Shown: piece after piece, positions 33,958 through 62,657 of the stretch
How positions within the stretch are numbered: the stretch's first letter is position 1
Layout of the letters: each line of letters starts with the position of its first letter
Assembly (NCBI GenBank): GCA_026874595.1
Contig: CM049320.1
Coordinates: 30,368,714-30,432,713, forward strand
Length of the DNA stretch: 64,000 nucleotides
Direction: 5' to 3'
Source: Sipunculus nudus
Taxonomy: Eukaryota; Annelida; Sipuncula; Golfingiida; Sipunculidae
Position numbers and translations under genes: made by a program
The notes under the pieces: model-generated
Database searches by the model: none
The model's input: the letters and a program-made list of their open reading frames with translations, nothing else
Told to the model about the DNA's origin: nothing

Positions 33958-34755
33958 GTGGGGAATCTAGGCTTTTGATGCATTGCATGCAGTTGGCACC
34001 CTTACAGACTGGCCACGTTTGCGAATTAATTCCTACGCCAGAAGTAAAACCCGGCAACCACTGCTTATGCTCATGCATGTTCATGGGCATGTGTCAGAGA
34101 TATCACTATGTATCTTATTTACTCATGTTAATTCATGTATTTTTATGTGGATTTTTGGATTGTCCAAACAAGGACTTAATTACCGTGTACTCATCGTAAA
34201 AGGAAAAAATCTCCGCAGAATCAGCGAGGCGTGATAAAGATGTCCGCAGTATGGTATATGTGTTGATCATCGACCTGATGCCGAATTCATCATTCAGATA
34301 CAGAAATCCACGCGCACGTATTGTCATAATTCTAAGACTTACATACATAAAACAACACGTTTGCTCTTGGGATTCAGATTCGTATTTCCATAATACACAA
34401 TGCACGACACAATATACAGATGTAGAATATAAACTATTAATCAAGCCTGTCACCGGTATACCGTACATCAAAACATAGTATAAGAAATTATGTTCGCCAG
34501 GTTCACCATCATCTGCTCTATACGTATGAACAAGAAAAACCTCATACTTTAAAGAATTTTAGCTGTTTGGTGTATGCAGATGAAAGAAACACGCAAGAAG
34601 TTTGTAATAACATTCTTTGTATATACCGATAATTATAGGTTTTGCAAGCAAAGGAATACATTATTTACCACTTGCCACGGACAATGAAAGACTCTGCGCG
34701 CATTCATATTGGAAGTCATTACAGTATAAAAATCGCGATCCATGCTATTAAAAGC

Positions 34756-44721: not shown

Positions 44722-44794
44722 ATGATGGCGGTCTCTTTCAGACTTCTTTTACTTTCATGCTGCATGTCTTTCGTGGCTGGTCTTGGTACCGTAA
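44722..44794 (+). CDS. Alkaline phosphatase exon 1: start and signal peptide
   Basis: ATG at 44,722 begins [20 protein letters not shown], a typical secretory leader. The donor region is tandem, GTAAGTAAGTG. Only the second GT (44,795) leaves the one-base overhang needed by exon 2, which starts with two bases of a codon. Using the first GT (44,791) would break the frame. Confidence 0.85.
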
Positions 44795-47054
44795 GTAAGT
44801 GTCTTTTTATCAAGAAATGTCTTTGCCTGGTAGAAAAGTCAGTGGTTAATGGTTCGTTTTGAAGATCCCTAGTGCCATTCGGTCTGACGCCTGAAAAGCA
44901 TCGCGTTAAGAGCTCGATAGCATGTAAGACTACAGTGATAATGTTTATAATGTGTTATTTATATAAATAAAACTCCTAGATTATCTCTGACTAAGTACAC
45001 ATATCAATACCTAGAATTAATAATAAAAATAATAATGCTGATGATGATAATAATCATAATAATAATAATAATAGCATTTTATTCTTGAGATAATTCAAAC
45101 TCTACTAATTATGATTGAGGTTATTTTAATGTTGTTAAGAACCGCCTGATTCCCGTTTTGCTGTACAGTATGTATTCACTGATGCTATAAGGATAAAGCA
45201 TTTTATTCTTGAGATAATTCAAACTCTACTAATTATGATTGAGGTTATTTTAATATTGTTAAGAACCACCTGATTCCCGTTTTGCTGTACAGTATGTATT
45301 CACTGATGCTATAAGGATTCACTGGTAATGATCTCTGGTATAGATACATGTACCAGGGCGTATACATATATAAGCATGCTACCATGCAGGGGGGGTCACT
45401 CCCAAGGACATCTCTGTCCAGGACACGTGGCTGTATTTATTTTCCCTGTATAACATCTATGACACACCTGAGGTTTGGACCTCTTTTAAATAATTTTCAA
45501 AATAAATTCTGATATCAAACTTTTTTTTACCTGAGAATTTGTTGTTTCTTCAGTCACACTAGACCAAGAAAAAGGGGGCTTGTGTATATCTTTTTTTAAC
45601 CATCCTGGCCCGAATGCAGTGAAGCCCAAAATGCCCCACCAAGCAGTCCCAAACAAGCATTTGGACAACACGTACCTCTTTGATTGGCCACAGATTTTAA
45701 AAAAATGACCAATACTGTCAAATTTATTGGTACTTATGCTTAACATAATTATAAATTAAACAATGGGATGTTTTTGCTGTCCCACCACATGATGGATAGA
45801 GCCAACCAGAGAAAGCCAGACTACTCTCCTTCAGGTTCAGGGCTAATGACCCCAGGTCATGTAGCCCACCCCAGGTCATGTAAACAATTAGGACCACGTG
45901 ACCTCCAAGGACAGTACTGTTGTAAACAGATATTGTGGGGCAAATGTTTACAGGGCTGCTGGTAAATGTTGACCTTGAAGGTGTCATGCTGGACAGTAAA
46001 TTAATAATAGTAGCAATAATACAAACAATAGTAAGATTAATATTAGCATTTCATTATCGTATTATAGTATTATCCCTTTCACGTTTGTTCAATATATAAT
46101 TTATTTTGTTATATTTATATTGTTCAATTTATACATGTATAAAAAATTATGATTAACAATACAACTGTTTGTACTTTAACATAATTTCATTTTCGATTAA
46201 AAAAGAAACTTATGGGAACTGTAGACTACTTAAATGGATGCAATTCCTGTTTGAAATACATGTAAAACAGTAAAGATTTAATGTTAGCAAGTAGTTGTCC
46301 TTAATTATGAAATTTCCGAAATATGCATACAACCCCGTATGCAAGTATGAAAAAAGACACAGTTTTTAATTTGTCATCCTGCATCTATAGGTCAGAGGTC
46401 ACCTGCAGTCGATGCCAAGCTGTGAACGCTCATAAAGCCCCCATTTGTACTAGATGTTTTTCACAAAGTGAGTTTCTGTGCATAAACGTGATTTTTTTTT
46501 TTGCTGAATAAAGTCATACAGCTGCACTTAGGCCAAGGAGAACTAACGCAGAGCTCGTTGCACATTGAAATATTTTTTTCTTACATAATCGATAAATCAA
46601 AATAAAAAAAAAAATAAGAAAGCCGCCTTGTAACTTAAGTAAAAGGAACACACGCGCGGCCAAATTTAAACAATGTGACACTTGCGAAACGCTGTCTCCT
46701 GTGTGACCTTTGAGCACTTGATGTTTTTAAGATCTTTTTATTTTATGTTTCCGTTTAAAAGCTCACGTGTGTGAGTTCATCTTCTTTTTGTTATGGACCT
46801 ATATCTAATGAGGTTGTAAAAATGAGCAGTTCTGAATATATATTAATGATATTATAATATATATATATAAATTATCATAATGATAAAATAATAATAATAA
46901 TAATCATATGATTCATATATTATAATTATTATTGTGTTAAATATAAATATAAATACATAATAATAATACATAGAAAATAAAATTATACTTATTATTGTGT
47001 TATTTATATATAAATATAAAATAATATATATATATATTTAAATATATATACACT

Positions 47055-47117
<63 letters not shown>

Positions 47118-49634
47118 ACTCTATAAACATTTATAACTCATTAAAGCTGGCAATGTTGCCCAGTTTCTTGGGTGCCCACATTAGGGTATATAGGATTTCC
47201 CTGCACACATATCATGGCAACGTGCGACCTGCCTTATGAACCACCACAAAGGGATACAGCCGCCGTCCACTACATCCATACCCCCTCTTGCCAAAACCCA
47301 TTAGAACAGAGGACAGGACATAATTCAGCACAGGTTTTGTCTTTATACCCTGCCCAGACGTGGCAGTTGTTAAAGAGAACAAATGCAAACCCTACAATCC
47401 TCGTATACTTCTCAGCATGCATTCCAGTGGACCAGATTGAACACCCGACCTGTGTTTTGCATTCAACAAAGTCGCGGATAGTACCGAGGATTACACCTTC
47501 AATTACATAAATCGAAATAGCAGACTCGGTGTCCGGGACTCCCAGTTGTAAGCCAGCGTCGTTTTTCGGTTCTGTACGGTGTTAAATACCCTAAAAGATG
47601 GCTCACGCGGTACGCTTGGCCGATGTGGCGATATGTGCCTTAGTGGCATATTTTACCTGCAGTTCATTGATAAATGATGAAATTTGAAACACTAAGACAC
47701 ATTTTATTTGAATGAAATATAATCCAGTTTTAATAGGAAATCACATTATTTTAATTGGCATGGGGGGGGGGGGGGGGCGGATATAATCTGGTAAATCCCC
47801 CTTGCTGAAAAAGTGTGTTAAAAAAAGTGTGCGTGTGTGTGGGGGGGGGGGGGGGGTGCCCCTGTTCCTACCAAATTGCGCCCACGCAATATGATAATCA
47901 ATATACATTAATATGTATTTTCTTTTCAGAATCGGACTGGGATGCCATAGCCCAGGCTGAGCTTAGCGACGCCCTCAACACGAAACCCAACCTCAATGTG
48001 GCCAAAAACGTGATATTGTTCGTTGGCGATGGCATGGGTATATCCACTTTAACAGCCTCCAGGATCTACAAGGGGCAGCTGGCGGGACGTCCGGGGGAAG
48101 AGACGGTCCTTGCGTGGGAAAAATTCCCCAGCATTGGTTTGTCTAAGGTGTATCTGTTGATCATGGGTAGAACAAGATGGGAGACGGGAGATCGTAAGTG
48201 CGAATCTCAGCCGAGATTTATCACGATAGGCCAATGCCAGGGTGAGCGCTCTGCAGGCTTAGGGGGGAAGCCGTATCCCACAGTCGTTCCATTCAAAAAA
48301 TACTGTGCCTTTCGGGGTCCCCAGCAATGGGACGATTACAGACACAGGGCCCGCAAGTGCGAAGTCACAGGGCCTGGTTAATACAGGTTAAAATATGAGA
48401 GAAAGCGTGTGATACTGCCCTGTCACGTCGTCCGGTACCGGAATTGAAATCTTATGATTTGCATACACTCAGAGTTAAGATAGCATTAAAAGTGGAGGCG
48501 ACCAAAAATATTAGAATAAAAAAGGTTATTCTTACCTAGTTACGGCGGAGAATCTGCACGTAATTCACGGAATAGATTATTAGCTATTGCCCCTCCTTAC
48601 CACAGATAACAGATAAGACACTTTCTGGGAGTGCGGGTATCTGAGAATATTTGTTCAGTTTTCCTTGGACGGTGCATAAATTAAATACGTATTAAATGTA
48701 TTTCATTGTATTCCAATTTATTCTAAGTCAACCATGATCATGCAATAATTTTTGATATTTTAAGACATATAAAGGTGCCTGCACCACATGCAAGTCGGTC
48801 AGCTAAGGAAATGAATTTCAAACAAATAACTTCAGGTTCATAACTGATCAACAGAAAAGGACAATTCAGTTATATATACATGTATTTGTGAATACATGTA
48901 TGTGTATTAATTTATTTTAACAAATGTGGATTTTGCAAAACATAAATAAACACGTACAAACTTGGAAGATAATTGGTAATGTAAATAATATACATATACA
49001 TATATATATATATATATATTATATGCATGATAAATGTAATGTATTATTTTTATTATACAGAAATGCTTATGCTATTATTATAATACATGAATAGTTATTA
49101 AAATATATATATATATATAAATGCCTTATATTCTAAATATTTGTTTTCTAATAATATTTGTTCTGTAATTGAGCATATATATTTACGATTTTATTCAACA
49201 GGTTTACCAGGCCGACAGACAAGTACCAGGGTCGGCCGGAACAGGAACTTGTATGTTCTCTGGGAAGAAAACCGTGGACCGTACGGTCGGAGTGAACCAT
49301 AATGTGATATACGGAGACTGCTCTACGGAGAAGGGAAACGAGGTGACAACGCTGGCCAACTGGGCGGCGGACGCAGGTATGTGCGTGATTTTACTGTTCA
49401 AACACCCTTTGACACAAGATTGACGCCCCCTGGTGGACGAAACAGTTATCATGTTCTCGGGTCAAGGCTGAAGTTAACCAAATTATCGCAAATATATTTC
49501 ACTTTAAATTATAAAATTAGCTGTACGTGCACGTGTCTGTTTCCCAGACAACGGTGGACCATTGGATTGGTAGGGATATTAGCCGAACGAGGAGAAAATG
49601 CGACTCTCGGTTATTATGTTATGTGTCCATGCGC

Positions 49635-49690
<56 letters not shown>

Positions 49691-52600
49691 AACTGTATAC
49701 TGAATGAACGGATCAGAACGAGGCTGGAAGTAGCATGAATATGAGGCAGCGATTTTTAGCTGGGAGTCCGACAGACCGACAAACATACTCAAACAAGAGA
49801 TCGAAAGAGTGACAGTTTTACCGTTTTGAGGAATGAAGCACCTGGTCTATGCAAAAATGATGATAGAAAAATCTGATCCCACCACCCAATAAAAGGAGCA
49901 CAGGTCATGGTTCCGAAATTGTCATGTTTGGGGGTATCAATGTGTGTGTCGATATTTGAACTTAAATTTTAATCGTGGTAGTTTGTATACTATGACAACT
50001 TTTAGGGACATCGGTTGGAGCGATTAACGGTACCGATATATGTGGATATTTGAAGATAAATTTTGATAAATGTATTAGTATGTAGTGACCACTCCTTGCA
50101 GGCAAGTCGGTTGGCGTGATCAGCACGGCCCGACTCACGCATGCGACACCTGCCGCCATGTACGCACACTCCGTGTCCCGACTGTGGGAAAACGACGGAA
50201 AGCTTCCCGAAGACGCCAAGGGAGTCTGTGAGGACATCGCGGCTCAGCTGATCAAACAACACCATATACAGGTACATACGCTTTTACTGCGCTATATTAC
50301 AGGCACTTGAATCCCTATAAACGTCATATATATATGAGTTGTCTGATGAATTTTTTGTTCAATCCGTTTCTTGTGTATTTCTAGGTGTTCCTTGGTGGCG
50401 GCAGGGCTCAGTTTCTCCCTAACACCACAACAGACGTGGAATATGAAAATAAAATGGGTCTTCGCAAGGATGGAAGAAACCTGATTGAAGTAGGTACAGC
50501 ACTAACTCATTAATAGTAGCCTTCATTACATATTACTTTTAGAGGAACTCGGGCTTGGACTCGGAGGTCAGGCCGAGTCAATTTGAGTCTAAGGAAAAAA
50601 GACTATGGCGGAACAAACTCGCATACGTGAACTATTTACAAGATATTAAAATAATTCATTACTGTTTATACGAAGCTAAATATCCCTGCATCGGGGGCTA
50701 AACAGAATAAACTAAACAAAACTTAACTCTAACAGATATATTTAAGATAATCTTGAATATCCATTTTAAAGTATTTTAAATAATGATATTTTTGTTGGAC
50801 TTGGATTTCGACTCGAATTCTAAAGGACTCGGACTTGGACTCGAACCTAAAAGACTCGGACTTGGACTCGAACCTGAAAGACTCGGAATTGGACTCGAAC
50901 CGGGTTTCGACTTTGAACCTTAAAGACTCGGATTAAGACTTTGAACCTAAAGGACTCGGATTTGGACTCGAACCTAAAAGTTACGGATTTGGACTCGAAC
51001 CTAAAAGACTCGGACTTGGACTCGAACCTAAAAGACTCGGATTTGGACTTTGAACCTAAAAGACTCGGACTTGGATTCGAACCTAAAGGACTCGGTTTGG
51101 ACTTTGATCCTTAAAGACTCGGACTTGGACTCGAACCTAAAAGACTCGGATTTGGACTTTGAACCTAAAGGTTCAGACTTGGACTCGAACCTAAAAGACT
51201 CGGACTTGGACTCGAACCTAAAAGACTCGGATTTGGACTTTGAACCTAAAAGACTCGGACTTGGATTCGAACCTAAAGGACTCGGTTTGGACTTTGATCC
51301 TTAAAGACTCGGACTTGGACTCGAACCTAAAAGACTCGGATTTGGACTTTGAACCTAAAGGTTCAGACTTGGACTCGAACCTAAAAGACTCGGACTTGCA
51401 CTCGAACCTAAAAGACTCGGATTTGGACTTTGAATCTAAAAGACTCGGACTTGGATTCGAACCTAAAGGACTCGGATTTGGACTTTGAACCTAAAAGACT
51501 CTGACGTGGACTCGAACCTGAAAGAGTGCCGAGTGCACTATTTGAATCTGTTACAGGAATGGAAGAATTCTATGAAAGCGAAAGACAAGAAATATGAGTA
51601 TGTGTGGAACAAGACTCAACTTGATATGGTCAGTCCTGACAAGACGGATTATCTACTCGGTAAGTAAAAAAGCTCTCATATAATATCACTTTAAATATAT
51701 CCCGGGGTTATTTATTATGTAAATTTATTTCTAGATGTGACGTTTATATTTCTCATGTTCATTTCCGATTGGTCGACTCTTGCAGCGATAGGACGAGTTA
51801 TAGTCAGAGCTTAGGGCCCCTTTGATCACTCAGCATGATGATAGGCTTGACAAGTCAACAATGTCATCGTGCCATTAATCTTTATATAACTGGATATATT
51901 TTCCGACTGGAGATTTTATGTTGATCTCGAGTGGAAAAACAAAAAACATTAGTTCTTTTATTTACAGCCTTGGTAATAACAGCGATCACTACTTGATTTC
52001 CAATAACTCAAATGTTATTTCAGTAATTTTGGATGAAGTCTTGATTATAACGATTTCTCTTATAATCAAGACTAATTCGTAAAGGTTGTTGTACATCTTA
52101 ATAAAAACTTGTGTCGAAACATTATGGGACATATAATTAGGAGCAATATAATGCCTATTCTTTCCCACTATCAGTTCAGTTTTGTGTTATACAAAAGTTT
52201 CCAAGCAAAACCATCCCAGCACACAGTCTAAGTACCTCGCATACGGCTGTTTAAGACCTTGATATGACTCTGCGTGATGTTTAACACAGTCAACTTGTTT
52301 ACCATAACAATGCTATGTGACCGGAGGTCCGATTGTAAGCTGCAACACGCAATGTTTTAAACTAGAGACCGGGGTATCCGCGTTTACCGAGTCCCTCAAA
52401 TTCAGTAAGGATAAAGAACTACAGCTAAACCTATTTAATAAGACCACATATGGGACTGATCAAAAGTGGTCTTAATTCACAGGTGGTCTTATAAGACTGT
52501 CAGTTTTAACCAAATTTTTTTTGGGTTCACTCAAGGGTTGACTTATTGAAAGGTGGTCGTATTGAACCAAGGACCTCTCAGACATGTTCCACTGCATATA

Positions 52601-55600
52601 TGTTCTGGTAGTGCCAGTATTTTACACTATTCCTTTAATTTTGAGCTTCACTTGTTATAAGGCCAATAGTATTACTGTAATTGTTGATTATTCAGGAATG
52701 TTTGAGCCGAGCCACATGCATTACGAGGCCAACAGGGAGAATGACAAGGCCGGGGAACCATCACTAGCTGAGATGACGGAGAAAGCCATCAGCATCCTGA
52801 AGAAAAATGAGAAAGGGTTCTTCCTTCTGGTGGAAGGTTTATAGATCTTCATTCCTTGTGTTCCCTTACAGTCTATATTATAAATGACGGTGGTGGCAAT
52901 GAATCGTTGTCACGTGACTCCTCTGTGTCCGTTTTGGGTCATGAAGTGTCGTGGAAGATGCCAAATGTGTCCTAAGGGGGATTTTCTGTATTTCCCCTAT
53001 TGATCCTTAGGAATTTGGCATTATTTCACAATCTATCAAAACGCAATCTTTCAGAAACTAAGTCTACTTTTTATTTCCAGCAAATTAACTCGATCCACGG
53101 AAAAACCGTCCATTGTGTGGTCGCGCGGGCCTGCATCAACTCGGGTCATGACTAATAGTATACAAAATAACCTTGCACTCTTGAAATCCCTTCAAACTTC
53201 AAATTGGTCTGCTCCCAGTGACCAGTATCCATTCCCTCCTTGGTGGAGAGGACGAACCTTTGTGGTTAAGACTTTGGCCAGGTGTCTTTTTGGGCCCCGA
53301 AACTGACTCGAACCCACAACCTCGCGGTCGCAAGTCCAGCGCCCTAAACCATACGCCACTACAAAGCCCGGAATGTCTCACTTGATTTAAAGCAATAGCT
53401 TTATTTAAACCAGCCCGGAATCGACAATGTGACCATGTACGACGAACTTATTCCCACGTTTGAGGGGTACCATTAATTTGACATCTCCAAATCCCCGGTT
53501 ATTCATATGGCTTTTCCTTTCATTTAAAACACCATCACTGCAACTGAAAGGGGAAATTGGTCCTTTTATGTGTCATGTATCGGACTAGTCTCTAGTCATA
53601 AAATTATCTGAACGAATGCGGGCGCTGGTGCCGCTGTTCACGGGACCACTCCTGGTTCATGTGCAAACTGGTACACATATATTTTTATATTATGGGATAG
53701 GAATCAGCGATATGGTTCAGCCGAGACCCAGGAATAAGAGAATATTACTCCAGGGATAAAACTGTGAGTCATATGAATAACCTTTGAAATGACTTTTCTT
53801 CAGTATGTGTTGCCTGACTACAATTAATTGTCCTTTCGTATTTGACACTGAGATACACATCTTTGATAAAAAAAAAATCCGTGTAATTATTTAAGGTTAC
53901 CAGTTCCAGTATATTTTAATGCATAAAATTTGTAAATTCATGTGTCACATTACGTTTCAGGGGCAAGAATAGACCATGGTCACCATGACAGCCTGGCTCG
54001 GCAAGCACTCAGCGAGACCCTGGGACTAGAGAAAGCGGTTAAGTCAGCGAAGAAACTCACTGACGATGACGACACTTTAATCGTCGTAACGGCCGACCAC
54101 TCCCATGTATTTACAATCGGTGGTTATCCGACCAGAGGAAACGACATATTAGGTATGGACGCATTTCTATAGATCTTTTAAGCCGTTACTGATTATATTT
54201 TATCATTAAAAAATGTGAAAAGAAAACTTAGTATCAAGCATCGTTAGATGTAACAGAGTCAGATATTTTTTGGCATGTGCAGAATCAAACAAGCTCACGG
54301 TGTGACGCTCAGAAATAGATGAATAACTTGCAAAATATGCCGCCAGATGTCAAGATTTCTTAACATGATCTATAGGTGTAGCCATTTTAAGACAGTACGG
54401 CATGCTGACTGGGTCAGAGTTACTTTGCTGATGATACACTTTGTATTGATGATCAATTCTGATGACAGGTTTTGTATGGATGAACATTTCTTACGTCACA
54501 TGCTATGGATACACATGTTCAACGACATACTTTTATAGATCCACATTTCTTAAAATCGTATTTTTAACAATTGATTGGTTTAAGAGTATCATAGTGACGC
54601 GGTCTATCGAATGAAGATGATCTAATTAGAATGAGATGTTTTTTTTTTATTAAGCCCCCTAGACAAATTAATTTGCTGTGAGGTGATCGCCGCCTTTCAC
54701 GCGCCGTCAGTCGATCTGATTTATCGGCTGAGGGGTTTGCGCCAACGGTGGATCGACAGATGGGTCGCCCATCAGCCGTTGGGCCATACCCATTGATCAA
54801 TATTAAAGTTAACACTGAACAAAAAGTATATACTATATCATGTAATCTTATTTTTTATAATAAAATAGACAATAAAATAATAAATGATGATTGAACCTAT
54901 GAAATTAAAATAACTGCATGTTAACTAACCCAAAAACTGACTGGTGAATAATGCCTTTAGATGATACAGGGTACAAATAAACTAAATTTTCTGTATTTTA
55001 TGTTTATATGTAATTCTATACATGTGCATCTGTTTAATCTCTCTTAGGTCCGACTAGAATATCGTTATCCTATGCGGTTCTGAGAAATGTATTTTTTTTT
55101 TACACCCAGTAGCTGCTGTCCACATATGTTTTACATGGACACGTTTCCTTAATATAAATAAATTAAGTATTCACCACAGATTACGTGTTTCAAGTCGTCT
55201 TATTTATTTTTTTTTATATAAAATGCTCTAATCTTATCATCGGCCGATAGGCGAACCATCAGTGGATTGACCGCGGGCGCAAGCCCTTCGGCCGAAAGCT
55301 CAGATCGACCGATGGCGCGTGACATGACGTTGTGTCCTAGTTATAAAGTACCCAAACTGTTAAATTTTTCTAACCTTTATGTGTTTTTTTTTTCAATCAC
55401 AAGCATATATTCTTCCAGGACTTGTCGACAACAAAGGTTTCCAAGTTGAGCCCTCCAGGGACGGCTTGCCGTACCTGACGCTCGGATACGTGAACGGTCC
55501 AAACGCACCGATAAACGCCCCGCGGAAAAGCCTGACCGGGCTGACTAAGGAGGAGCTCCGTAAGTTAAACTTACCACGTTTATTTTATTTTTTATCATAT

Positions 55601-56351
55601 AAGCAACCGGAAGACTAAGCCTCCGTCATTCACTTATTCGGCCCATATTTCCAGGTTAACCATGATATTTTTAGGGCATTTCGGGAAAGGTCCATTTATC
55701 TCCATTCTTCCTGATGTATGGAAGAGAAGGTCACAGTTTCAACAATCTTGTTCAAGATGACTTATTGAACCATCCAGTAACATCAACACCAGAAAAGAAT
55801 ATATCTGATATAATATTAGGTATCGATTGGATTTTGATGTGGTCACGGCGCATGATCCGGATTGAGGAACGCCATCAAGAAATTGTACAGTCTCTTATCT
55901 GCAATGAACCAGGGAATATGGGCCAAATAAGTAAATGCAAGATCGGCTTGTGGAGCATCCCACAATAGCCCCAATCCACCCCATGGCGGACCCTTGCATT
56001 AGTTAGAATGCACTAGTTACTGTTATTTTTTTTCTGTTTCCAGATGATTTTGAATTCATGCAGCCGGCAGCTATTCCAACCAAATACGAAACCCACGGAG
56101 GGGAGGATGTGGCGATATACGCCACAGGCCCGATGTCGCATCTGTTCCACCGGACACACGAGCAGCATTTTATCGCCCACGCTTTGGCGTACGCCGCCTG
56201 CATAGGCCAAAACAAGGGTCACTGTTACGGAGCGACACCTGGAGGCCAGTCAGGACATCAAACTTGCGGTGGAAACCGACATGAAGTTTCCGATCTGGTG
56301 TTTTTTGTCACGTTGTTTTGTTTGTCGCTTTCAAGATTACTGGTGTACTGA
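44722..56351 (+). CDS. Alkaline phosphatase, complete ten-exon gene
   Basis: Membrane-linked metalloenzyme that hydrolyses phosphomonoesters at alkaline pH. Ten exons, all with GT-AG introns and matching phases, sum to 1626 bp (541 aa plus TGA), close to the usual 520-540 aa. N-terminal signal peptide (about residues 1-22). Metal and catalytic residues by alignment to animal enzymes: D58 (VGDGMG), nucleophile S108, H169 and T171 (HATP), R182, E328 (LLVEG), D333 and H337 (RIDHGHH), D374 and H375 (VTADHSH), H457 (ETHGGED). A hydrophobic C-terminus (about 523-541) fits a GPI-anchor signal. Oddity: the residue before S108, Asp in typical enzymes, is Gly107. One N-glycosylation sequon lies in exon 5 (PNTTTD). 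The gene is convergent with eIF4G downstream. Substrate and tissue cannot be read from the DNA. Confidence 0.93.
45073..45320 (+). repeat. Recent 124 bp tandem duplication in intron 1
   Basis: The block starting AGCATTTTATTCTTGAGATA at 45,073 is repeated at 45,197 with about two differences (AATGTTGTT/AATATTGTT and ACCGCC/ACCACC). Confidence 0.95.
45321..47929. other. Remainder of alkaline phosphatase intron 1
   Basis: No supported exon. Contents are AT-rich DNA with (AAT)n and (TA)n runs (46,840-47,112) and two G-runs (47,763-47,778 and 47,841-47,857), the second within 90 bp of the exon 2 acceptor. The - strand frames at 45,486-45,987 and the + frame at 47,172-47,510 are open but without recognisable motifs. 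Confidence 0.5.
47763..47857 (+). repeat. Two poly(G) runs
   Basis: G-runs of about 15 and 17 bases, the second preceded by (GT)n, upstream of alkaline phosphatase exon 2. G-quadruplex formation is plausible. Confidence 0.85.
47930..48147 (+). CDS. Alkaline phosphatase exon 2: first metal-binding Asp
   Basis: Acceptor TTTTCAG, 218 bp, ends at Lys97 before GTGTAT. Contains [12 protein letters not shown] with D58, and the RIYKGQ and FPSIGLSK blocks typical of the family. A SINE begins at the donor itself. Confidence 0.9.
48148..48455 (+). repeat. tRNA-derived SINE, copy 6, at the exon 2 donor
   Basis: GTATCTGTTGATCATGGGTA lines up with the SINE head CTTCTGTGGCTCAGGGGTA. It is followed by GCGAATCTCAGCCGAG (B-box region), GGTGAGCGCTCTGCAGG and the family tail (GGGCCTGGTTAATAC, TGATACTGCCCTGTCACGT). 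The element starts at the splice junction, so the donor GTGTAT may derive from it. Confidence 0.7.
48990..49020. repeat. (TA)n microsatellite
   Basis: Short interrupted TA run in alkaline phosphatase intron 2. Confidence 0.85.
49202..49376 (+). CDS. Alkaline phosphatase exon 3: nucleophile serine
   Basis: Acceptor TTCAACAG, 175 bp. Codes [16 protein letters not shown]: Ser108 (TCG, 49,232-49,234) is the phosphate-accepting serine, and Gly107 (GGG, 49,229-49,231) replaces the usual Asp. Ends in the [15 protein letters not shown] helix. Confidence 0.92.
49638..49690 (+). repeat. (GT)n/(GA)n microsatellite
   Basis: GTGTGTGTGT followed by about 40 bp of GA repeat in alkaline phosphatase intron 3. 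Confidence 0.95.
50102..50271 (+). CDS. Alkaline phosphatase exon 4: HATP metal site and substrate Arg
   Basis: Acceptor CTTGCAG, 170 bp, phase-matched to exon 3. Contains [16 protein letters not shown] (H169, T171) and VSRLW with R182, the phosphate-contacting Arg by position. Confidence 0.92.
50385..50489 (+). CDS. Alkaline phosphatase exon 5
   Basis: Acceptor TTTCTAG, 105 bp, phase 0-0. Codes [13 protein letters not shown], the family's GGG block, with an NTT glycosylation sequon. Ends RNLIE before GTAGGT. Confidence 0.9.
50790..51530 (+). repeat. 27 bp minisatellite in alkaline phosphatase intron 5
   Basis: About 27 copies of a unit like AAAGACTCGGACTTGGACTC followed by GAACCTA. A higher-order unit of 190 bp (seven monomers) repeats nearly exactly at 51,050 and 51,240. 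Because 27 is a multiple of 3, long meaningless frames (NLKDSDLDS-type) stay open. It fills most of the intron and ends about 30 bp before exon 6. Confidence 0.95.
51557..51659 (+). CDS. Alkaline phosphatase exon 6
   Basis: Acceptor GTTACAG, 103 bp. Codes [24 protein letters not shown], matching the family's W.N.....DYLLG block. It follows directly on the intron 5 minisatellite. Confidence 0.9.
52422..52577. mobile_element. Possible Tigger-like MITE in intron 6
   Basis: CAGCTAAACCTATTTAATAAGACCAC at the left and GGTGGTCGTATTGAACCAAGG at the right are roughly inverse, and GTGGTCTTA recurs inside. Similar AGACCAC/GTGGTC words occur in the 5.35 kb element. Ends are not sharp. Confidence 0.35.
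52696..52836 (+). CDS. Alkaline phosphatase exon 7
   Basis: Acceptor TATTCAG, 141 bp. Codes [14 protein letters not shown], then the [11 protein letters not shown] helix and KGFFLLVEG with Mg ligand E328. The donor is the weak GTTTAT, but phase and protein continuity require it. Confidence 0.9.
53235..53378 (-). repeat. tRNA-like SINE in intron 7
   Basis: On the - strand: GTAGTGGCGTATGGTTTAGG (A-box), then GGTTGTGGGTTCGAGTC (B-box) and TTTCGGGGCCC. It is unlike the main SINE family in sequence and has no credible acceptor stem, so it is a SINE rather than a functional tRNA gene. Confidence 0.55.
53961..54152 (+). CDS. Alkaline phosphatase exon 8: main zinc-site exon
   Basis: Acceptor CGTTTCAG, 192 bp. 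Codes GARIDHGHH (D333, H337) and [10 protein letters not shown] (D374, H375). Ends RGNDILG across the donor GTATGG. Confidence 0.93.
54690..54783. repeat. Inverted repeat, left arm (alkaline phosphatase intron 8)
   Basis: TTTCACGCGCCGTCAGTCGA, TCTGAT, then GGTTTGCGCC and ATGGGTCGCCCATCAGCCG. It is the inverse of 55,238-55,327 and GC-rich against an AT-rich background. The pair encloses about 450 bp. Confidence 0.75.
55238..55327. repeat. Inverted repeat, right arm (alkaline phosphatase intron 8)
   Basis: ATCGGCCGATAGGCGAACCA through GGGCGCAAGCCC to TCGACCGATGGCGCGTGACA. It pairs with the left arm and may be the termini of one DNA element or two opposed copies. Confidence 0.75.
55419..55559 (+). 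CDS. Alkaline phosphatase exon 9: variable crown region
   Basis: Acceptor TTCTTCCAG, 141 bp. Codes [20 protein letters not shown], then GYVNGPNAP, matching the family's Y.NGPG block. Ends one base into a codon before GTAAGTT. Confidence 0.88.
56044..56351 (+). CDS. Alkaline phosphatase exon 10: last zinc ligand and C-terminus
   Basis: Acceptor GTTTCCAG. Codes [20 protein letters not shown] (H457), then [16 protein letters not shown], and ends with a hydrophobic tail to TGA at 56,349-56,351, a likely GPI-attachment signal. Candidate poly(A) signals lie only at 57,747 and 57,975. Confidence 0.92.
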
Positions 56352-60876: not shown

Positions 60877-62545
60877 CCTCACTTAGACCTTCTTGAAAAT
60901 GCGACCATTTTATCGAGGTCCCGTTGGTTGACGTAATTTCGAGGTGTCACTGTATAGATACATGACTGAATAAGGCACCATATTACCGTGGGGATTACTC
61001 CCTCGTGTTTTTCCTCAGCTTTCAACCAACTGAAAAATTTGACGACAGTTTTCCGGGCTTGTTTCTTTCCAGCCTCATTAGGATTGTTGTCCTTTTCCCA
61101 GGTATAAAAGCAATCTTCTGATATCACTACTTCATCGTAGAGGACATCGAAAAATTGTTGCAGCAGACCTGAAATGTCAGGTGCCAGTTAAAAAAGTTAT
61201 CATCTCAATACATTATAGAAACAGAGTGATTTAAATACAATATTCAAACGCATTAGTCTAAAGTAATGACTGTTTTTTTTATTGAAATCTTTTTATTGAA
61301 ATATTTTTATTGAAATTGAAATTTTAATGAAATCGAAAATATTTAAATAAAGTTTTTTGAAGGGGACGATTAGAATGTCTTGAGGTGTACTTTAAACTCA
61401 GCAGTATTAATGCTACTGTTTTTTTTATGGTTTCGAAAAATATCAAATGAGATTTGATTTTTTAGTTTTTTCAACATTTTGAATTTTGAATAAGAATGTA
61501 TCATGGAAAGAAACATTGTGCATGTGTATAGGGCATATTCCATGCTCTCGCCTTACAACCTATGTTCATGAAGTATGTTCCTTTTCACCCATTTAACTCC
61601 AATTCTGTTCTAATTCTGTTGTGGAGGAATATTACTTGAATTCAATGAACCTACTTATAAAAATAGCACAGCATAGGTAACTATAACTTAAAGGGGCCCA
61701 ATCACCAATCTGACCTTCATAAACTTAAGGTAATCCTTTGGAGCTTTTATAAAAATAGGCCGGAAAACGTAGATATGCCCGCACACAGACTGCTTGTTTT
61801 GTTTATATTGAAAATGATTATAAGATGTGGGGGCCGACCAAAATAATCAAAACAAATTGAACAAAGGCATCAGGCAGCAAGTCAGATAGGCCAGAGTTTT
61901 GCAAATAGCGTTTTGCAAAAAGTGACCTTTCACCTCTGTAGATATCTACAACCTGAGGTTACATGTTTTTCCTAGTTTATCAACTTTGCTGTGTTGCCCT
62001 CATGAATAAGACGCCAAGTCTAAACAGATGAACGGTCATTTATGATACAGCCTTAATGGCATTTTATGTCTGTTTTTCACACAAACACGCTTGTAGATTT
62101 ATAAGTCTTAAAGCAAATGCATAAATTTATAAAAATATATATTTTATGTTTCCAGTAAGTCAAAGATAAATATTATTAGTTATAACAGTTCGGATAACAA
62201 TTACCACCCGTTGTTGTGGGTCCTCGTCAAATTGTAATTATAATAGATGCACTATGTGTAGGTTTCTGCATGGTCAGATCGCGAAAACAGAAACCTCGCG
62301 AAACAACTAAAGGGTGAAAATCGACAAAAAATAGACCCACGAATATGAAAACAACCACAGTATATATTGATTAATTATCCACAAAGTGTGTTTACCTGTC
62401 GGATGGCCCAGCCTTTGCATAATGGCCTGCAAGGCATACAAGGCTTGGAGCTCCAGGTCAGCCTTGGTCAGGAACTTCCGTAACACTTTAACCCGTCTCA
62501 CGAGTTTATCTTCCATCAGTTCCCAAGTCACAATGTCGTCTATAA
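59047..62545 (-). CDS. Translation initiation factor eIF4G, last four exons (5' partial)
   Basis: eIF4G is the scaffold of the eIF4F complex that recruits ribosomes to capped mRNA. Exons on the - strand: 62,545-62,396, 61,168-60,987, 59,760-59,615 and 59,164-59,047. All have GT-AG introns and matching phases, giving 197 residues plus TAG after a split first codon. The first two exons carry the C-terminal W2 (AA-box) domain: LELQALYALQAIMQRLGHPT, then LLQQFFDVLYDE, VISEDCFYTWE and FFSWLKAEEK. In animals this domain ends eIF4G and binds Mnk kinases. Here two further exons add ~87 residues, Gln/Ser/Pro-rich and then Arg/Lys-rich (RRGRNYRRRKNQRKK), ending VNDPGT. The tail exons rest on splice phase only. 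Upstream exons are beyond the window. Confidence 0.85.
59310..59344. repeat. (TA)n microsatellite
   Basis: Interrupted TA run just upstream of the final eIF4G exon on the - strand. Confidence 0.9.
59615..59760 (-). CDS. eIF4G C-terminal extension exon 1
   Basis: Acceptor ATTTACAG, 146 bp, donor CGGCAG|GTAATG. Phase 0 in and two bases out fit both neighbours. Codes AFNVKDSKTASYVGVWVSQQ, then a Thr/Ser/Pro/Gly-rich stretch. No known domain. Confidence 0.6.
59900..60241 (-). repeat. tRNA-derived SINE, copy 7
   Basis: On the - strand: GAGGCAGAGCACAGGCCTC at the head, GTGAGTTCAAATCTCAGCC (B-box region), CACAAACGAGTGCG in the body and AATGGACTCTGCAGATTTAC at the tail. It lies in the eIF4G intron in the same orientation as the gene. 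Confidence 0.75.
60556..60957. mobile_element. Outer Tigger-like element split by a nested insertion
   Basis: The left end ACACCTCGATTAAGAGACTA and the right end, read on the other strand, ACACCTCGAAATTACGTCAA are inverted relatives. Both carry GACCA/TGACCA-type internal words. The middle is occupied by (TA)n and the element at 60,690-60,830. Confidence 0.5.
60690..60830. mobile_element. Tigger/pogo-like MITE inside a TA microsatellite
   Basis: The 141 bp element has termini CAGTGAAACCTCGTTGTGTC and, on the other strand, CAGTGAAACCTCGTTGTGTA, 19 of 20 matching. It also has internal TTCGACACA inverted words. It is flanked on both sides by (TA)n (60,641-60,689 and 60,831-60,872), consistent with TA target choice. 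Confidence 0.8.
60987..61168 (-). CDS. eIF4G exon: second half of W2 domain
   Basis: Acceptor ACATTTCAG, 182 bp, donor CCCACG|GTAATA. Codes LLQQFFDVLYDEVVISEDCF, then YTWEKDNNP and KTVVKFFSWLKAEEKHEG, the conserved acidic/aromatic end of eIF4G. If this donor were not used, the frame would run about 36 codons into the intron. Confidence 0.87.
61200..62390. other. eIF4G intron
   Basis: No exon seen. At 62,275-62,360 is a CTCGCGAAAC..ACGAATATGAAAACAACC repeat word set also found, altered, at 18,320-18,400, 20,815-20,845 and 37,925-37,995. Confidence 0.5.
62275..62360 (+). repeat. CGCGAAA/CGAATATGAA dispersed repeat fragment
   Basis: GATCGCGAAAAC, CCTCGCGAAAC and CCACGAATATGAAAACAACC. Related fragments occur after the tRNA-like head at 18,253 and in duplication copy B at 37,925, suggesting the 3' body of another SINE or MITE family. 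Confidence 0.5.
62396..62545 (-). CDS. eIF4G exon: first half of W2 domain
   Basis: Acceptor ATTATACAG, donor CGACAG|GTAAAC, 150 bp. Codes IDDIVTWELMEDKLVRRVKV, then LRKFLTKADLELQALYALQA. The LQALYALQA string is near-identical to vertebrate eIF4G. Confidence 0.88.
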
Positions 62546-62657
62546 CTGTATAATTACATTTAAAGAACAGCTTGTTTATATGAATAGGCATCACAAAAGC
62601 TGAGTTCGACGACCAGGTAAAGTTTAAATATTAACATCCACATGGTTGATCATGTAT

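Follow-up and report, generated by a model that had tools for sequence, protein, structure and literature searches.

An unbroken alkaline phosphatase gene of Sipunculus nudus with glycine in place of the aspartate before the catalytic serine

The short PROSITE-style signature of alkaline phosphatases, [IV]-x-D-S, includes an aspartate directly before the catalytic serine, and the locus described here raises the question of what is encoded by an alkaline phosphatase gene in which this aspartate is missing. The window, that is, the whole stretch of 64,000 nucleotides analysed (contig CM049320.1 of assembly GCA_026874595.1, positions 30,368,714 to 30,432,713), reads GTA CCA GGG TCG GCC GGA at 49223-49240, which translates as V-P-G-S-A-G. 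The signature aspartate is absent from the predicted protein and glycine stands in its place. An earlier note on this DNA had drawn attention to glycine at the equivalent of E. coli Asp101, and the GGG TCG codons at 49229-49234 were recovered in alignments with both TNAP and the E. coli enzyme. The reading frame at the site is set by the open exon 49202-49376 and by the alignment with TNAP, in which QVPGSAGT of the window protein faces QVPDSAGT. Conversion of GGG to GAC or GAT takes two base changes; the glycine can therefore be put down neither to one miscalled base nor to a single recent mutation. The natural substitution in an unbroken gene is real and well supported.

The gene model comprises ten coding exons (Table 1). 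Exons 2-10 were set by homology together with splice sites, and they have AG and GT ends throughout, barring the final stop. Exon 1 is probable, and two further in-phase donors also yield an open join. The spliced frame runs for 541 codons with its sole stop at the end, no frameshift and nine GT-AG introns, the first of which is putative. Mean hydropathy is 1.80 for residues 2-22, encoded by the putative signal-peptide exon, and 1.69 for the last 20 residues. Cysteines are found at residues 137, 198, 492 and 500, an arrangement that we take to be compatible with the two disulfides of mammalian enzymes.

Table 1. Features of the alkaline phosphatase gene, in positions of the window.
Feature	Position	Strand	Remarks
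Whole gene, ten coding exons	44722-56351	+	541 aa; exon 1 putative
Coding exon 1 (probable): start codon, signal peptide	44722..44794	+	Putative, from open frame, hydrophobic N-terminus and phase-compatible GTAAGT donor
Coding exon 2: GDGMG, Asp is a Zn2 and Mg ligand	47930..48147	+	AG/GT ends, homology
Coding exon 3: nucleophile loop VPGSAGT	49202..49376	+	AG/GT ends, homology
GGG, Gly replacing Asp (E. coli Asp101; human TNSALP Asp109)	49229..49231	+	Precursor residue 107
TCG, catalytic Ser (E. coli Ser102; human TNSALP Ser110, number from PMC10329691)	49232..49234	+	Precursor residue 108
Coding exon 4: His at the E. coli 153 position (50140-50142), Mg-ligand Thr, substrate Arg (50179-50181)	50102..50271	+	Coordinates of the substrate Arg counted manually
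Coding exon 5	50385..50489	+	
Coding exon 6	51557..51659	+	
Coding exon 7: LLVEG, Mg-ligand Glu	52696..52836	+	
Coding exon 8: RIDHGHH and TADHSH, Zn ligands	53961..54152	+	
Coding exon 9	55419..55559	+	Lowest conservation, 8/40 aligned residues identical to TNAP
Coding exon 10: ETHGGEDV (Zn1-ligand His), hydrophobic C-terminal tail like that of GPI-anchored enzymes, stop codon	56044..56351	+	

Two alternatives to parts of this model were considered. An exon suspected to be missing between 50271 and 51557 was located and is exon 5 of Table 1, and a shifted acceptor, dropping Val-Tyr-Gln, was ruled out by a gapless alignment with TNAP there. A motif scan and a tblastn search of the window found no second nucleophile exon and no other alkaline phosphatase, returning only chance matches (E of at least 3.5). 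Base composition ranges from 33.5 to 40.5% GC per 4 kb step across the window. The intron ahead of the exon at 51557 holds a minisatellite (50798-51525) built of a 27-base unit in about 27 copies, with a higher-order repeat of 190 bases (3.8 copies, 92% matches); it stops about 30 bases short of the acceptor, and several of its frames are partly open.

The encoded protein matches PF00245 over profile positions 1-423 of 423 with 480.7 bits, against a curated cut-off of 24.4, and its closest solved structure is TNAP (486.9 bits against PDB 7yiv), and it agrees with the human enzyme at 233 of the 469 residues aligned. At E. coli positions 51, 102, 155, 166, 322, 327, 331, 369, 370 and 412 the alignment places D, S, T, R, E, D, H, D, H and H, respectively, and the two zinc sites and one magnesium site (D51, D327, H331, D369, H370, H412, T155 and E322, E. 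coli numbering) are identical to E. coli in all eight residues. In this regard, the statement in the earlier note that the metal ligands and the substrate arginine are intact agrees with the alignment. Membership of PF00245 rests on the profile, the serine, the ligands and the arginine, since the missing aspartate is neither ligand nor nucleophile and the E. coli enzyme is active without it. The window protein resembles animal alkaline phosphatases, including TNAP/TNSALP, in its family profile, nucleophile, zinc and magnesium ligands, substrate arginine, histidine at position 153 and hydrophobic ends, whereas it differs from them in having glycine for aspartate before the serine, valine for threonine nine residues upstream, and lysine for valine in the GVK that follows.

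To what extent the aspartate is constant among relatives was evaluated in a set of 38 loci, 4 from genome contigs, 12 from viral contigs and 22 from plasmid records. Among 41 stretches scanned in genome contigs there were 4 relatives, and the viral-contig scans gave relatives in 0/11, 1/40, 11/34 and 0/3 stretches; plasmid records with a match numbered 262 and 271 in two lists, 23 stretches being picked from both, and 11 phage records with a match were left out of the comparison. A tblastn alignment spanned the site in all 38 loci and yielded 39 sequences (37 distinct proteins), every one of them with aspartate. They were drawn from collections of prokaryotes, plasmids or viruses, with no animal among them, and because some are duplicates of one contig or belong to near-identical strains, they do not amount to 39 separate lineages. 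E. coli PhoA (L039) and human TNAP, which were added to a fuller alignment, have aspartate as well, as do the printed PDB alignments of placental-type and intestinal-type enzymes, 1k7h/1shn, 3a52, 2x98 and 2iuc/2w5x. We take 1k7h/1shn to be the shrimp enzyme, 3a52 that of Shewanella, 2x98 a halobacterial enzyme and 2iuc/2w5x TAB5; the animal comparison consists of TNAP, two more mammalian enzymes and shrimp. Hits in the prokaryotic, viral, plasmid and PDB collections included no recognised mollusc enzyme. Among the sequences compared, the expectation that other enzymes carry D-S at this point is upheld. Even the animal-like alphaproteobacterial phosphatases of Microvirga and Ensifer (L005 and L006), which are about 46-48% identical to the window protein across most of its length, differ from it in that both retain the aspartate.

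Position 153 adds to the distinctness of the site. The window protein has histidine there, as do 27 of the 39 others, but all 27 retain aspartate at 101, and the window protein is the only member of the alignment with neither of the two aspartates. Position 328 is also histidine, against lysine in E. coli. Among the matches listed in a literature search that covers few subscription journals, and whose silence does not show absence, there was no paper on a natural glycine at this site; searches with motif strings gave no paper combining two of them, and the term for the bovine intestinal Gly322 case was absent from the papers among the best matches listed.

Two of the homologous loci are themselves unusual. 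In L003, a Clostridia MAG (match from 1501), asparagine is aligned to the catalytic serine with the aspartate retained, and 11 of the 28 conserved columns differ in this sequence. L002, a Bacteroidales MAG, contains two adjacent alkaline phosphatase-like stretches, the first strongly divergent (16 of 31 conserved columns). From their sequences, L003 and one of the L002 copies look like divergent or non-enzymatic paralogues.

Conservation elsewhere in the protein bears on whether the gene is decaying, which the earlier note had denied. In the alignment with E. coli, 28 columns are at least 90% identical among the 39 others, and the window protein keeps 27 of them, departing at the glycine site alone; decay is therefore unlikely. 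Without E. coli (38 others) there are two departures in 29 columns, the second being valine for threonine at residue 73, and at the 80% level 43 of 50 columns are kept. By leave-one-out, 37 of the 39 others show 0 to 4 departures at conserved columns and the remaining two show 11 and 16. Lowering the level to 85% gives 39 columns, and the window protein departs at four; three of the four fall within residues 73-95. At 85%, departures in this segment, which was picked post hoc, number 3/7 against 1/32 in the rest of the protein (Fisher p 0.014); the figures are 3/7 against 4/43 at 80% (p 0.048) and 1/5 against 0/23 at 90% (p 0.18). In the numbering of the 516-residue fragment, the unusual neighbours of the glycine are valine for threonine at 73 and cysteine for alanine at 89. 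The protein is thus well kept overall, with a hint of local change around the nucleophile, and the clustering of departures in 73-95 could reflect local relaxation or local adaptation alike. The valine codon lies at 49202-49204, the first codon of the nucleophile exon at the intron boundary; 35 of the 39 others have threonine there and 4 have histidine.

The consequences of losing the aspartate can be approached through the E. coli enzyme, in which, according to excerpts of PMC4438272, Asp101 and Asp153 position Arg166. The same excerpts give a kcat of 12 per s, a KM of 0.36 uM and an observed kcat/KM of 3.3e7 per M per s for the wild type, with 6.3e8 estimated for the chemistry-limited step. 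D101A has a kcat of 36 per s, a KM of 3.6 uM and a kcat/KM of 9.9e6, that is, a higher kcat, a tenfold higher KM and a lower kcat/KM than the wild type. D101G is active, with a kcat/KM of 7.6e6, and D101S has 9.1e6, with 3.1e6 and 1.7e6 listed too. In the double mutant D101A/D153A kcat is 2.2 per s, KM 6.2 uM and kcat/KM 3.3e5, and crystals show R166 displaced in D101S and either flipped or in two positions in D101A/D153A. D101G is thus the identical substitution at the equivalent residue, although D101G, D101A and D101S are laboratory mutants with Asp153 and Lys328, whereas the window protein is natural and has histidine at both positions. The proposal that small residues at 101 raise turnover stands only in part, as far as these excerpts go: such residues are tolerated and kcat rises in D101A, but kcat/KM falls and a rise is not assured without Asp153. 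Higher turnover in the window protein is not to be assumed, because the gain of D101A was obtained with Asp153 present, the window protein has histidine there, and D101A/D153A loses turnover. Histidine at 153 may partly replace Asp153. By analogy, the chemistry of the site is largely anticipated by E. coli mutagenesis.

Taken together, we consider it fairly probable, from the predicted protein and from the E. coli mutants, that the gene encodes a functional, secreted and probably GPI-anchored TNAP-like animal alkaline phosphatase that carries a natural equivalent of D101G, with an untethered arginine and weaker phosphate binding. In such an enzyme, loss of the carboxylate would free the substrate arginine (E. 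coli R166) on the Asp101 side and, with histidine at 153, neither of the arginine-holding aspartates of E. coli would be present. With both aspartates missing, the arginine would be expected to be mobile and to bind substrate and product phosphate more weakly, with a higher KM and lower product inhibition. Turnover could go up if phosphate release is rate-limiting and down if chemistry is. The natural niche of this enzyme would be high-substrate or high-phosphate surroundings.

Other explanations have to be weighed against this one. It is unlikely, in our estimation, that the glycine marks a weakened allele or early relaxed selection, that is, a hypomorph without an adaptive role that either still segregates or has become fixed in a redundant paralogue. 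Human data lend this idea some weight: in the available parts of PMC12651241, TNSALP Asp109Glu is expressed like the wild type and has 40% activity in a cell assay, and it is reported on one allele in two adult-onset hypophosphatasia patients (excerpts of PMC12651241 and PMC10433156). This variation affects the equivalent residue of an animal enzyme, which may mean that animal enzymes tolerate change at the site less well and which keeps the hypomorph explanation alive, although the human change is to glutamate rather than glycine and is a patient allele. The unusual residues also tend toward the same loop. Redundancy would be plausible if the host were a mollusc: the portions of PMC6368272 available report eight alkaline phosphatase transcripts in one land-snail species and state that molluscs have evolved many such enzymes. 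Against a hypomorph, however, speak the preserved conserved columns, all ligands tested, the splice sites and the frame, together with the need for two base changes rather than one. A non-enzymatic or repurposed paralogue, in which the fold and metals are retained with little activity, would fit the loss of an active-site residue that is universal among the relatives examined and the valine at the exon boundary; we nevertheless regard it as highly improbable, given that the nucleophile, the metal ligands and the substrate arginine are all retained and that E. coli alkaline phosphatase is highly active with D101G alone (excerpts of PMC4438272). A sequencing, assembly or haplotype-mixing artefact is more improbable still, since it needs two adjacent wrong bases amid a clean frame and clean splice sites.

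A narrower form of the favoured explanation, overlapping with it, holds that the change is adaptive and lineage-wide: a clade-fixed enzyme with its arginine held by neither aspartate, of low phosphate affinity, releasing phosphate fast, resisting product inhibition and working in settings rich in free phosphate, such as mineralising or digestive surfaces. The codon, two steps from aspartate, suggests some age, and the gene is unbroken. In squid, by contrast, the active-site residues I106-T116 and the metal ligands are stated, in the excerpts of PMC3569863, to be conserved relative to oyster, cow and human, which makes it improbable that every mollusc has the change. We hold this version to be quite unlikely.

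The functional, weakly phosphate-binding enzyme that we favour would be of interest for several reasons. In the literature examined, the Asp101/Arg166/Asp153 network has been measured thoroughly, on artificial mutants, and a natural enzyme without both aspartates, encoded by a gene that is otherwise evidently constrained, would show what selection accepts instead of tight phosphate binding. One clean natural exception to an otherwise constant aspartate makes a useful test case. Weak product inhibition is desirable in reporter phosphatases, and the glycine enzyme could have practical interest for that reason.

Three other features of the window were observed, all on the minus strand. An eIF4G/eIF5-type exon (Pfam W2, 4.1e-12) lies at 60879-61187, convergent to the phosphatase gene, and 62307-62630, which has no significant Pfam match, is by eye perhaps an adjoining exon of the same eIF4G/eIF5-type gene. 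At 34133-34558 there is an open frame of 141 codons with a weak, sub-threshold match to Tweety (E 0.0078).
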